From the NCBI RefSeq assembly GCF_000717185.1, contig NZ_JNYE01000022.1:1-64000 (forward strand): a DNA stretch of 64,000 nucleotides, in the 5' to 3' direction. The notes beneath the pieces were generated by a model, which saw nothing but the letters and a program-made list of their open reading frames with translations, was not told where the DNA came from and did no database searches. This DNA is from Kitasatospora phosalacinea. GTDB lineage: Bacteria > Actinomycetota > Actinomycetes > Streptomycetales > Streptomycetaceae. Of the stretch, positions 12,436 through 15,537 are shown piece after piece. Within the stretch, counting starts at the first letter, position 1, and every line of letters begins with the position of its first letter. The position numbers and the translations under genes are program-made.

Positions 12436-12786
12436 ATGACGAACGCACCCGAGTCCGGAAGCGTCGAGATCGCCCTCGACGACGGCACCGTCCTGCACGC
12501 CGCCCTCCGCCACGGCCCCGGCCGCCGGGCGGGGGACGCGGGGGCGGTCTCCGCGGCGGTCACCCACAGCCTCGGCGAAGTCCGGCGCACGGTGCGCGCG
12601 GTCGGGCGGTGGGCGCGCGAGACGGCGCTGGAGGCGGGCGACCCGGACGAGTTCGAGGTGGAGTTCGGCCTCGACCTGGAGGTGAAGTCCGGCCGCCTGG
12701 TCGGCGTCCTCGCGGAGGCCTCCGCCCGGGCCGGCCTGGTCGTCCGGCTGAGTTGGCGGCGGCCGGACGACCGCGGCGCCGAGTGA
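12436..12786 (+). CDS. Trypco1-like (CU044_2847 family) protein
   Basis: The 116-residue protein resembles the CU044_2847/Trypco1 family, small proteins known mainly for co-occurring with trypsin-like proteases in predicted conflict systems of actinobacteria and other multicellular prokaryotes. Visible features are an N-terminal beta-rich SVEIALDDGTVLHA, a central helical segment, and EFEVEFGLDLEVKSGRLVGV, the family-typical acidic strand followed by a short C-terminal strand (GLVVRLSWRR). There is no signal peptide. GGGGGA precedes the ATG. Its TGA overlaps the GTG of the protease gene, so the pair are coupled, as expected for a protease and its regulator or adaptor. The molecular function is unknown. 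Confidence 0.8.
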   Translation: MTNAPESGSVEIALDDGTVLHAALRHGPGRRAGDAGAVSAAVTHSLGEVRRTVRAVGRWARETALEAGDPDEFEVEFGLDLEVKSGRLVGVLAEASARAGLVVRLSWRRPDDRGAE

Positions 12787-13673
12787 GCCCGGACAGCGCG
12801 GCGGTCCTGCTCGCCGACCCGGCCGGGAACTTCCGCGGCAGCGGCTTCCACCTCGGCGCGGGCCTGCTGGTCAGCTGCGCGCACGTGGTGCACGGCCGCC
12901 CGGGGCTCACCGCGGCCACCGGGCCCGGCGCGGACGCCCACCCGGTGCGCACCGCGCGGCTGTTCCCGCCGGGCCCGGTGCCCGGCGCCGCCGCCTACCC
13001 GCGGCCGGACCTCGCCCTGCTCACCGCGCCCGGCCTGGCCGACGCCCCCGCCGTCCCGCTCGCCGGGCGCGACCCGGCGAGCGGCGCGGTCGTCCTGGTG
13101 CGCGGCTTCGCGAGGAACCCGGTCACCGGCGAGGTCGGCCCGGAGTCGGCCCGGCTGACCGTCGCGGGCCCCTCCGGTCTCGGGATACGCGTCCAAGGAG
13201 GCTGGATCCAGCCCGGGTTGAGCGGCGGCATGGCGGTCGACGGGCAGGGCCGGGTGGTCGGCGTGGTCAAGGCCACCGCGGACGGCGACGACCCGGTCGG
13301 CGGCTGGCTGACCCCGCTGTCCGAGCTGCTGCCGCTGCTGCCGCCGGCCGCCCCGCCCCCGGCGCCCCGTCCGGCGGTGACGGCGGGCGAGGTCGCCCGG
13401 CTGCTCGCCGCGCCGGCCCCGCTGCAGGACCCGGCGGTGCGGCTGGAGCTGGTGCAGGCGGTCAACGAGCGGCTCGGCCCCGGCGAGGAGGTCCGGGTCG
13501 CGTACCACGCGCTCGCCGCCCTGCACCTGCGCGCCCTCGCCGCCTGCTGCCTGCAGCACCGCCGTCCGGGCGCCGCGCTGCGCGCCCTGCTGGCCGGGGC
13601 CCGCGAACTGTGCGGCCCGCACCGGGCGCTGGACGAACTGGACGCCCTGCTGGGCTCCGAACCGGAGGAGTGA
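12783..13673 (+). CDS. Cytosolic trypsin-like serine protease with helical C-terminal domain
   Basis: The 296-residue protein has a trypsin-like fold at residues 1-185 with the full catalytic triad: His34 in SCAHVV, Asp76 in RPDLALL, and Ser147 in PGLSGGM. There is no signal peptide, so it should act in the cytosol. A proline-rich linker (187-198) leads to an all-helical domain at about 200-292 resembling the effector-associated domains that couple effectors to regulators in predicted conflict systems; this assignment is by pattern only. The GTG overlaps the preceding gene's TGA. The next gene starts one base after its stop. The physiological substrate is unknown. Confidence 0.82.
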   Translation: MSPDSAAVLLADPAGNFRGSGFHLGAGLLVSCAHVVHGRPGLTAATGPGADAHPVRTARLFPPGPVPGAAAYPRPDLALLTAPGLADAPAVPLAGRDPASGAVVLVRGFARNPVTGEVGPESARLTVAGPSGLGIRVQGGWIQPGLSGGMAVDGQGRVVGVVKATADGDDPVGGWLTPLSELLPLLPPAAPPPAPRPAVTAGEVARLLAAPAPLQDPAVRLELVQAVNERLGPGEEVRVAYHALAALHLRALAACCLQHRRPGAALRALLAGARELCGPHRALDELDALLGSEPEE

Positions 13674-13674
13674 G

Positions 13675-14652
13675 ATGGACCGCTGCACCTGGGAGACCCG
13701 GCAGATGCTGCAGCGCATCCTCGCCGGATGGTTCGAACTGGCTCCGGTGCTGCCGGAGTTGGAGCAGCACCTGGCCGAGACCACGGGCTACCCCGTCCAG
13801 GTGCAGCCCCGCCCGCTGTCGGTGTCCGCCACCCGGATCGCCAAGTTCCTGGCCGAGGACCACCGGCAGCCCGCCGCCGCGATCGGCCACCTGCACGACT
13901 GGCTGGTCAACGTCCACGGCAACCAGCTGCGCGGCGACTGGGTGTCCTTCCTCGCCCTGGTGCAGAACGCGCCCGGGCTGGCCGTCGACCAGCGGGCCGA
14001 GCTCGTCGCCATCGCCGACGTGCTGTGCTTCCCGCCGGTGGCCCCGCTGCGCACCGACGGCCGCCGCCTGGTCGAGATGGCCACCCACGCCCGGGTGATC
14101 GGCAGCCCCGGCCTGCTGCTGGAGGAGCTCGCCCTCAAGGAGCCGCAGCTGGCGCAGCACGCCCGCGAGGCCGCGGAACGCGTCCGCACCGGCCCGCCCC
14201 CGCTCGACCGGCAGGAGGAGCTGCCCCGGCACGGGCGCCCCCTGGTGCGGGCCGCCGCCGGCCTGGCCGTGCTCGCCGTCGTCGCCCTGGCCGCCGTCCT
14301 GGCCTGGTCGGGCGGCCCGTCGCCGCTGCCCGCGCGGAGCGCCGTCTGGAGCGACCCCACCGTCGGCCCCGGCGGCACCAGCACCGCGGAGGTCGACGTC
14401 CCCGCGGGCGCCGCCCGGCTGAAGGCCCGCCTGCTGCTGTCCGACGTCAACCCGGACAGCGGCAGCTGCACCGAGCTGACCGCCCGGCTCGGCATCGACC
14501 AGCACGACAGCAGCGACTGGCGGCCCCCGGGCGCCGAGGTCTCGCTCCCGGTGCCCGCCGGCCTCACCCGCCTGCACCTGACCCTGGAGCTGAGCGAGAC
14601 GCCGGGCTGCACCCAGAAGGTCGACATCCAACGCGTCGAATTCACCCGCTAG
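13675..14652 (+). CDS. One-pass membrane protein with cytosolic helical and outer beta domain
   Basis: I do not recognise a named family. The 325 residues divide into a predicted helical cytosolic domain (1-170), a charged linker, one membrane helix at about 191-212 (flanked by HGRPLVR on the inside), and an extracellular beta-rich domain (213-325). That domain has only two cysteines, Cys265 and Cys312, which could form a disulfide. Positive residues precede the helix, supporting N-in/C-out. The gene starts one base after the protease stop and is followed nine bases later by the lipoprotein gene. It is therefore placed to connect an outside signal to the cytosolic protease. That role is an inference. 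Confidence 0.7.
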   Translation: MDRCTWETRQMLQRILAGWFELAPVLPELEQHLAETTGYPVQVQPRPLSVSATRIAKFLAEDHRQPAAAIGHLHDWLVNVHGNQLRGDWVSFLALVQNAPGLAVDQRAELVAIADVLCFPPVAPLRTDGRRLVEMATHARVIGSPGLLLEELALKEPQLAQHAREAAERVRTGPPPLDRQEELPRHGRPLVRAAAGLAVLAVVALAAVLAWSGGPSPLPARSAVWSDPTVGPGGTSTAEVDVPAGAARLKARLLLSDVNPDSGSCTELTARLGIDQHDSSDWRPPGAEVSLPVPAGLTRLHLTLELSETPGCTQKVDIQRVEFTR

Positions 14653-14661
14653 GAGTCCCCC

Positions 14662-15537
14662 GTGCCCACCCCGCGCTCCGCCCGCCTGGCCGTCGGCCTG
14701 CTGCTGTTCGCCACCGCCGCGTCCGGCTGCTCCGGCGACGAGCCGAAGCCGTTCGACAACCTGCCGGTCAAGGTCGGCTTCAAGACCGACCGCCCCGGCA
14801 TGTCCGAGTTCACCGACAAGGGCGTGTACGACGGCTTCGAACCGCACCTGACCATGAAGGTGCTCGGCTCCCGCAAGATCGACTACACCTCGCTGACGGT
14901 GACCACCGCCAACTGGGAGGACGCCCTCACCGACGGCAAGGCCAACCACAACAAGGTCGACCTGGTGGTCGCCGACATCTCCGAGCGCGACAGCCTCAAG
15001 CAGGACTACAACCTGGCCGGGCCCTACCTGCAGACCCCGCTGGGTGTCCTGCTGAAGGCCGGGGACACCAGGACGGTCGCCAAGTCCGACGACCTCAGGC
15101 CGCTGCGGGTCTGCGTCTCCCCCGGCACCACCGCCGAGGCCCAGCTCCGGGACATCGGCCCCCGGGTCACCGTCACCGGCACCAACCTCAAGGAGTGCCT
15201 GGCCCGGGTCGACGACGACACCGCCGACGCCGTGCTCTCCGACTACCTGGTCCTGCAGGGCGTCGCCGCCAACTCCGGCAGCGGCGGCACCCGCGCCTAC
15301 CGGGTCGCCCGGGACGCCCACATCGGCAAGACCCAGTTCCTGATGATGGTGCTGCCCAAGGGCCACCGGAAGGCCTGCGAGCTGCTCCGCGAGGCCATCA
15401 ACGACTACCTGCAGGACCCGGACTGGATGAACGCCCTGCGCAGCTCCTTCGCCTTCGGCCCCGACTTCACCGACAAGGAGCTGCGCGACACCTTCAAGCC
15501 CGTCACCACCTCCGCGGGCGACCGCTGCTCGGCCTGA
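14662..15537 (+). CDS. Solute-binding-protein-like lipoprotein
   Basis: The 291-residue product has a lipoprotein signal with lipobox ATAASGC and acylated Cys23. The mature part resembles type 3 periplasmic amino-acid-binding proteins: KVGFKTDRPG at the start, DLVVADISER in the ligand-cleft region, and DAVLSDYLVLQG in lobe 2. No ABC permease or ATPase is encoded nearby, so it is more likely a sensor or adaptor than a transporter component. AGGAGT at 14651-14656 gives a good ribosome binding site for the GTG. It is the last gene of the protease cassette and meets the convergent response-regulator gene 13 bases later. Confidence 0.78.
   Translation: MPTPRSARLAVGLLLFATAASGCSGDEPKPFDNLPVKVGFKTDRPGMSEFTDKGVYDGFEPHLTMKVLGSRKIDYTSLTVTTANWEDALTDGKANHNKVDLVVADISERDSLKQDYNLAGPYLQTPLGVLLKAGDTRTVAKSDDLRPLRVCVSPGTTAEAQLRDIGPRVTVTGTNLKECLARVDDDTADAVLSDYLVLQGVAANSGSGGTRAYRVARDAHIGKTQFLMMVLPKGHRKACELLREAINDYLQDPDWMNALRSSFAFGPDFTDKELRDTFKPVTTSAGDRCSA

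Follow-up and report, generated by a model that had tools for sequence, protein, structure and literature searches.

The vWA-MoxR-associated protein (VMAP) ternary systems, as set out in the sections that treat them in Kaur et al. 2020 (PMC7159879), combine Trypco1-trypsin pairs with coupling through effector-associated domain 2 (EAD2), and effector-associated domains (EADs) are predicted there to act through homotypic contact. The same sections describe EACC1 (System 4), a membrane-associated, EAD-linked two-gene peptidase system with a proposed membrane sensor, in some cases of which a transmembrane (TM) helix is combined with a periplasmic-binding domain outside the cell. In the GlnH-GlnX-PknG system, a membrane protein is proposed to relay signals from a solute-binding lipoprotein to a kinase in the cytosol (PMC6069109, PMC9769921), and Arg169 of GlnH binds the alpha-carboxylate of the ligand (PMC6069109). 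Here, we analyzed a four-gene cassette in a stretch of 64,000 nt (the window) on contig C22 (NZ_JNYE01000022.1) of Kitasatospora phosalacinea. The cassette encodes a Trypco1 protein, a trypsin-like protease, a one-pass membrane protein without Pfam matches (P3), and a solute-binding-protein-type lipoprotein (SBP), and its four genes make up a single unit with the following features:

12436..12786, + strand: gene 1, Trypco1 protein, 116 aa (PF19493)
12783..13337, + strand: trypsin/HtrA-fold protease domain, residues 1-185 of 296 aa, triad His34/Asp76/Ser147
13383..13670, + strand: EAD2, protease residues 201-296, assigned from PF19956 in relatives and a home-made hidden Markov model (HMM)
13675..14190, + strand: predicted cytosolic helical domain of P3, residues 1-172 (predicted structure, predicted local distance difference test (pLDDT) mostly >90)
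14257..14316, + strand: putative TM helix of P3, approximately residues 195-214 (hydropathy, Lys/Arg bias and a model of low confidence there)
14332..14649, + strand: predicted outer beta-sandwich domain of P3, residues 220-325 (predicted structure; invariant Cys265 and Cys312)
14662..15537, + strand: SBP, 291 aa, GTG start (PF00497, PDB relatives and a 10-orthologue alignment)

An earlier note, made from the letters of the window, had described four coupled genes separated by a GTGA overlap of 4 bases, 1 base, and 9 bases, and the open reading frame coordinates agree: the whole protease gene spans 12783-13673 (GTG start, 296 aa), and the whole P3 gene 13675-14652 (325 aa). The Pfam scan, which took in the cassette and its immediate neighbours (seven neighbouring genes), bore out the three proposed identities above the Pfam cut-offs: Trypco1 reached 56 bits (PF19493, cut-off 24.6; 47.9 bits with NCBIfam NF041216), Trypsin_2 41 bits (PF13365, cut-off 27.6), and SBP_bac_3 32 bits (PF00497, cut-off 26.4), while P3 gave zero matches at E<=1. 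Trypco1 thus adjoins a trypsin-like peptidase, the pairing that was looked for, and the order held in 10 genomes.

Conservation of the set was assessed in a sample of 70 Kitasatospora genomes. P3 was detected in 11 and was full length in 10, and SBP matches at E<=1e-104 fell in exactly the same 10 genomes, next to P3, the next-best SBP match dropping to 28% identity (E 4.7e-17). Gene order, site and flanking genes were identical in the window and the nine further genomes, and the spacings hardly varied: -4 between Trypco1 and the protease in all eight measurable genomes, 1-3 bases from the protease stop to the P3 start (10/10), and 9-10 bases between P3 and the SBP (10/10). The frame was broken in the protease of one genome (G042, L021) and in the Trypco1 gene of another (G012, L022), possibly through sequencing errors; the upstream chorismate gene of G012 also seems frame-broken, judging by split matches. 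No close P3 or SBP orthologue stood away from the protease pair in the 70 genomes, a result that covers this direction only, as the reverse case, a cassette-type protease lacking both P3 and the SBP, was not searched genome by genome. In a set of 5.8 billion proteins, with about 8,000 candidates scored in each search, 25 P3 homologues were retrieved by sequence and 27 by profile, the window's own counted. Wherever source names were given on these homologues, all were Kitasatospora, a narrower range than the Streptomycetaceae-wide scope envisaged in the earlier note. As a further sign of linkage, the longest contig was equal in size to that of a P3 cluster in 14 of the 19 cassette-type protease clusters (P0027-P0045) and not in the other five.

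The cassette lies between a chorismate-binding/GATase gene on its 5' side and, on the opposite strand at its 3' side, genes for a LuxR-type response regulator and a DUF5931 histidine kinase (Pfam); further flanking genes are presumably a DAHP synthase, a PlsC and an esterase. At this site, none of the four proteins was matched in any of 20 sampled cassette-free genomes (tblastn at E<=1e-3 on the fetched stretch). Of these 20 genomes, 19 showed the flanking gene on either side, the exception being G002, where the response regulator was met just at the edge of the stretch, and in 10 the matched flanking genes were 13-131 bp apart. The latter include G041, which has a flanking gene 90% identical to that of the window and is missing the cassette. 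A scrambled remnant containing fragments of P3 and the protease tail occupies the same site in G027 (L028 8057-8700), its pieces in an order different from that of the intact operon. The simplest reading would be that the set was present in the clade, that its genes decayed together in G027, and that they are jointly missing elsewhere. In other Kitasatospora (L063, L068, L076, L078, L080, L081), the gap between the chorismate-binding/GATase and response regulator genes holds varied unrelated genes, including IS110-type transposase, F420 oxidoreductase-like, condensation domain, FG-GAP and transglycosylase-like genes.

His34, Asp76 and Ser147, read as the catalytic triad from the outset, were invariant in all 20 aligned proteases (two of them non-cassette), and the protease has no strongly hydrophobic segment. 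Its helical C-terminal domain, also recognized in the earlier note, is by sequence comparison assigned to EAD2. PF19956 is precomputed in 14 of the 18 full-length cassette protease clusters and scored above cut-off in the proteases of three cassette genomes (G008, G036 and G014). The Pfam model itself missed the window protease's own copy, whose tail was matched at E 4.8e-6 by a home-made EAD2 HMM built without cassette rows; hhalign of the 20 protease tails to EAD2 gave a probability of 97.9% (E 4.9e-13), with the two non-cassette rows included in the alignment.

EAD2 matches were found in 16 genomes of the genus, 3 with the cassette and 13 others. In 10 of the 13 non-cassette regions (L101-L109, L111), a trypsin-EAD2 protein is followed by a second EAD2 protein and then by a MoxR ATPase, with Trypco1 detected upstream in nine of these ten; L110, L112 and L113 lack the arrangement. 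The second protein was EAD2 plus VMAP-C in both regions checked by Pfam, the EAD2 match of L103 lying slightly under the cut-off, and a MoxR match was present in 17 of 20 wider-family regions hand-picked from the listing. Given the gene order in these related loci, P3 and the SBP stand in the slots of the EAD2-VMAP protein and of MoxR. In the protease tree, the 18 cassette proteases formed one clade (support 99/99), nested in a 100/98 group with ten EAD2/MoxR-linked proteases and one trypsin-VMAP protein of the same genome; the deeper forks are unsafe because of long branches and midpoint rooting. A compact Trypco1, trypsin-EAD2, EAD2-VMAP-C and MoxR operon was also observed in G069 (L102 5256-9332). 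Its protease scores top among EAD2 loci against the protease profile (201 bits), a rank that is partly built in because the profile held two L102-like rows (P0047, P0048).

VMAP-C matched twice in the genome of K. phosalacinea, on contigs C35 and C131, and not on contig C22; neither MoxR nor vWA was present among the four operon genes, the part of the 64 kb that was scanned for them. The genome holds three other Trypco1 loci, L031 (C35, from ~49.9 kb), L030 (C131) and L029 (C16). Two of them combine Trypco1 and a trypsin-VMAP-C protein with an AAA gene, and the third, L029, pairs Trypco1 with a trypsin-like/nSTAND1/WD40 protein, the trypsin part being placed by eye and by the protease tree, as its Pfam row fell outside the best 25. 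Several predicted conflict systems are found within this one strain.

The structural model of P3 comprises helices from residue 3 to 172 (pLDDT mostly >90), one hydrophobic helix of low confidence (195-210), and a beta sandwich (220-325) whose fold bears a non-specific resemblance to carbohydrate-binding modules. Hydropathy over 19 residues was 2.47 at residue 193, and Lys/Arg residues were in excess in the 20 residues before the TM segment relative to the 20 after it in nine of ten orthologues and equal in one. Because the surplus precedes the TM segment, the helical domain is predicted to lie inside and the beta domain outside, in line with the one-pass topology first proposed for P3. The intervening linker (residues 173-194) is Arg-rich and disordered, with pLDDT mostly <50 and a mean identity of 0.34. 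In the models, the first five helices of P3 (residues 1-97) match the protease EAD2 in order and roughly in length, and an HxxPxxA turn common to both was seen by eye; P3 plausibly carries a diverged EAD2. Among the best 150 of 385 candidates scored in the genome, no other convincing EAD2 was found (next E 0.41), which makes P3 the natural operon partner.

By eye, Cys23 of the SBP falls within a lipobox-like stretch; this Cys is invariant in 10/10 orthologues. No ABC permease or ATPase was detected by Pfam among the seven immediate neighbouring genes, consistent with the earlier description of a solute-binding protein without ATP-binding cassette (ABC) partners. PDB relatives include ArtJ and Mycobacterium tuberculosis GlnH, the latter having in common with the SBP two Cys and the motifs RVCV..GTT..CL..DAV. 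Beyond the lipobox, Cys151, Cys179, Cys239 and Cys289 are invariant, and Cys151/Cys179 align with the two Cys of GlnH. Leu112 occupies the carboxylate-Arg position in all five PDB alignments that were printed, including two to GlnH; in the other chains, we take this Arg to play the same role. Pocket residues Ser107 and Asp194 and the TTA motif are invariant in 10/10 orthologues. Judging from these residues, the pocket is maintained but would probably not accommodate the carboxylate of an amino acid as is usual in this family, and the SBP may not be a binder of an ordinary amino acid; amines, peptides or another protein could be bound instead.

Ratios of nonsynonymous to synonymous substitution (dN/dS) were taken as medians over all pairs (45 for the P3 domains; Trypco1 over 9 genomes, G012 left out). 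The P3 outer domain had a median of 1.40; of its 45 pairs, 36 gave values >1 and 44 gave values higher than those of the cytosolic part. Medians were 0.59-0.69 for the cytosolic part of P3, 0.84 for the SBP, 0.56-0.64 for the protease, and 0.32 for Trypco1, the lowest of the four; six flanking genes ranged from 0.08 to 0.40. Pooling pN/pS over five hand-picked, non-overlapping pairs gave 1.13 for the outer domain versus 0.64 for the cytosolic part (Fisher p 0.0016). Rapid evolution of the P3 outer domain is solid.

We propose that the cassette is a receptor-coupled, outside-in EAD-type protease switch with a role in conflict, resembling GlnH-GlnX-PknG except that a protease replaces the kinase, and we give this reading an even chance of being right. 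The Trypco1 and trypsin-EAD2 front end of a VMAP ternary conflict system would be joined to a membrane receptor rather than to the usual EAD2-VMAP adaptor and MoxR/vWA switch. The tethered SBP and the P3 beta domain would jointly sense a stimulus at the surface of the cell and signal through the single P3 helix to the cytosolic helical domain, and this domain would recruit or cluster the protease via its EAD2 tail. Trypco1 may be the partner or the restraint of the protease, which, once active, would cleave targets in the cytosol in response to danger or conflict. The genes, their domains, the topology signals, the joint inheritance and the kinship of the protease with EAD2/MoxR-linked proteases are shown; we infer the P3-SBP and P3-EAD2 contacts, the activation of the protease, the direction of control and the conflict role; outside-in control is favored because the wiring is GlnH-GlnX-PknG-like and the protease carries an adaptor domain predicted for homotypic contact. 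The tie to predicted conflict modules, already drawn in the earlier note, is supported by the domain content of the protease and by its relatives, namely its EAD2 and its grouping with EAD2/MoxR-linked proteases.

Several observations weigh against this proposal. The helical domain of P3 aligned to EAD2 with a probability below 2% in hhalign and HMM searches did not detect the relationship, shuffled sequences reached the observed P3-EAD2 score in 40/60, 7/60 and 0/60 cases for three EAD2 profiles, and P3 was not among the EAD2 profile matches of its own genome (best 150 of 385 candidates scored). In the SBP, the Arg that normally binds the carboxylate is absent, with Leu112 invariant in 10/10 orthologues, and ligand binding by the SBP is uncertain because this Arg is replaced. 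Distances of the SBP and the outer domain showed no special co-variation (partial r 0.38 versus 0.56 for the cytosolic part). The outer domain was not significantly over neutral in the five pooled pairs (binomial p 0.19), and positive selection on it is not solid. The set is missing from most of the genus and is decayed (G027) or missing (G041) in two relatives within the clade, and it is therefore dispensable. All four proteins went unmatched by the PADLOC anti-phage families, save for a weak similarity of the protease domain to RT-Protease_XI (22 bits), and we know of no experiment on the cassette.

Other readings were considered. A tentative one, which we think doubtful without dismissing it, likens the cassette to a death-receptor pathway: the lipoprotein at the surface and P3 as a single-pass receptor would read an extracellular cue, and a cytosolic adaptor domain of this receptor, a diverged EAD, would gather the EAD-protease, forming an NTPase-free, outside-in trigger of conflict or self-restriction, with an ectodomain evolving fast, possibly in an arms race or in kin recognition. 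It is rather unlikely that the cassette serves nutrient or envelope-state signalling, the SBP reporting an external metabolite or cell-wall fragment via P3 and the protease removing a regulator. GlnH is among the PDB relatives of the SBP, with its two Cys and motifs in common, and the similarly wired GlnH-GlnX-PknG adjusts metabolism; however, the invariant Leu stands where a carboxylate Arg is expected, the sporadic spread (10/70) and fast outer domain are unlike a housekeeping sensor, and the kin of the protease are of conflict type. The same Leu weakens the ligand sensor of the earlier note, if taken in the ordinary amino-acid sense.

The atypical pocket of the SBP, a beta domain that is the fastest-evolving folded part, and the loose resemblance of this domain to carbohydrate-binding modules would also suit P3 as the receptor itself, recognizing a partner of variable surface (on kin, a competitor or a phage), with the SBP as a co-receptor or surface regulator that no longer binds small ligands. 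We regard this as unlikely, Asp194, Ser107 and the TTA motif being invariant in 10/10 as though the SBP still binds something. Control could instead run inside-out, an internal trigger leading the protease to cut the P3 linker (173-194) and so to release or remodel the surface domain and the lipoprotein. The linker is mostly of pLDDT <50 and poorly conserved, but no conserved cleavage motif was seen in it and no NTPase or other internal sensor was recognized by Pfam in the operon, and we consider this route improbable. That the genes are chance neighbours with no joint function is scarcely credible: the Trypco1, trypsin-EAD2 and type-3 SBP families each occur separately in other contexts, yet chance assembly is contradicted by common presence, order and spacing in 10 genomes and by joint absence or decay. 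The two findings by which the earlier note would have given up a joint system, a chance assembly or a life of the last two genes apart from the protease pair, were thus not encountered in the 70 genomes.

Compared with the VMAP ternary systems, in the sections that describe them, the cassette is alike in pairing Trypco1 with a trypsin, in its EAD2-bearing protease, and in the order Trypco1/trypsin-EAD2/partner. It is unlike them in that its contig is without VMAP-C, its operon without MoxR and without a detected second EAD2, and the one-pass protein P3 fills its partner slot, with the lipoprotein SBP in the slot after that. The trypsin-nSTAND1-WD40 locus of the same genome (L029) likewise has Trypco1 adjoining a trypsin-like domain, whereas an NTPase and WD40 repeats are fused to the protease there. 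EACC1, as presented by its authors in the section devoted to it, is also a peptidase conflict system at the membrane, with EAD links, a proposed membrane sensor and, in some cases, a periplasmic-binding domain. Its peptidase is however of caspase type and that of the cassette of trypsin type, its TM helix has short alpha+beta extensions whereas P3 combines a helical domain of 172 residues with a beta sandwich, and the periplasmic-binding domain of EACC1 systems lies in a variable region and is read as effector-like whereas the SBP is a separate lipoprotein. The EACC1 TM domain was not recognized in P3 (zero Pfam matches at E<=1, in a library not checked for an EACC1 model). GlnH-GlnX-PknG, in the published descriptions cited, is similarly an operon of an SBP lipoprotein, a membrane protein and a cytosolic enzyme devoted to signalling and not transport, and the best PDB relatives of the SBP include GlnH; the system differs in its kinase, in GlnX with four TM segments and helical sensor domains versus one hydrophobic helix in P3, and in Arg169 of GlnH versus Leu112 at the same position. 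No description of the four-gene combination appeared among the literature matches listed. The novelty first claimed is reduced because the EACC1 membrane peptidase system and GlnH-GlnX-PknG were already described. The combination departs from the described systems in its peptidase, membrane protein and lipoprotein, in an operon without a visible NTPase core. EAD proteases have so far been predicted with NTP-dependent intracellular switches, and the cassette ties the same front end to a likely surface receptor; if this coupling is true, EADs would be interchangeable plugs between sensors, like the Death-fold adaptors of animals. With four genes, gene-free relatives at the same site and one decayed copy, the cassette is a small, clean genetic system in which the roles of Trypco1 and EAD-trypsins, so far only predicted in the sources cited, can be tested directly.

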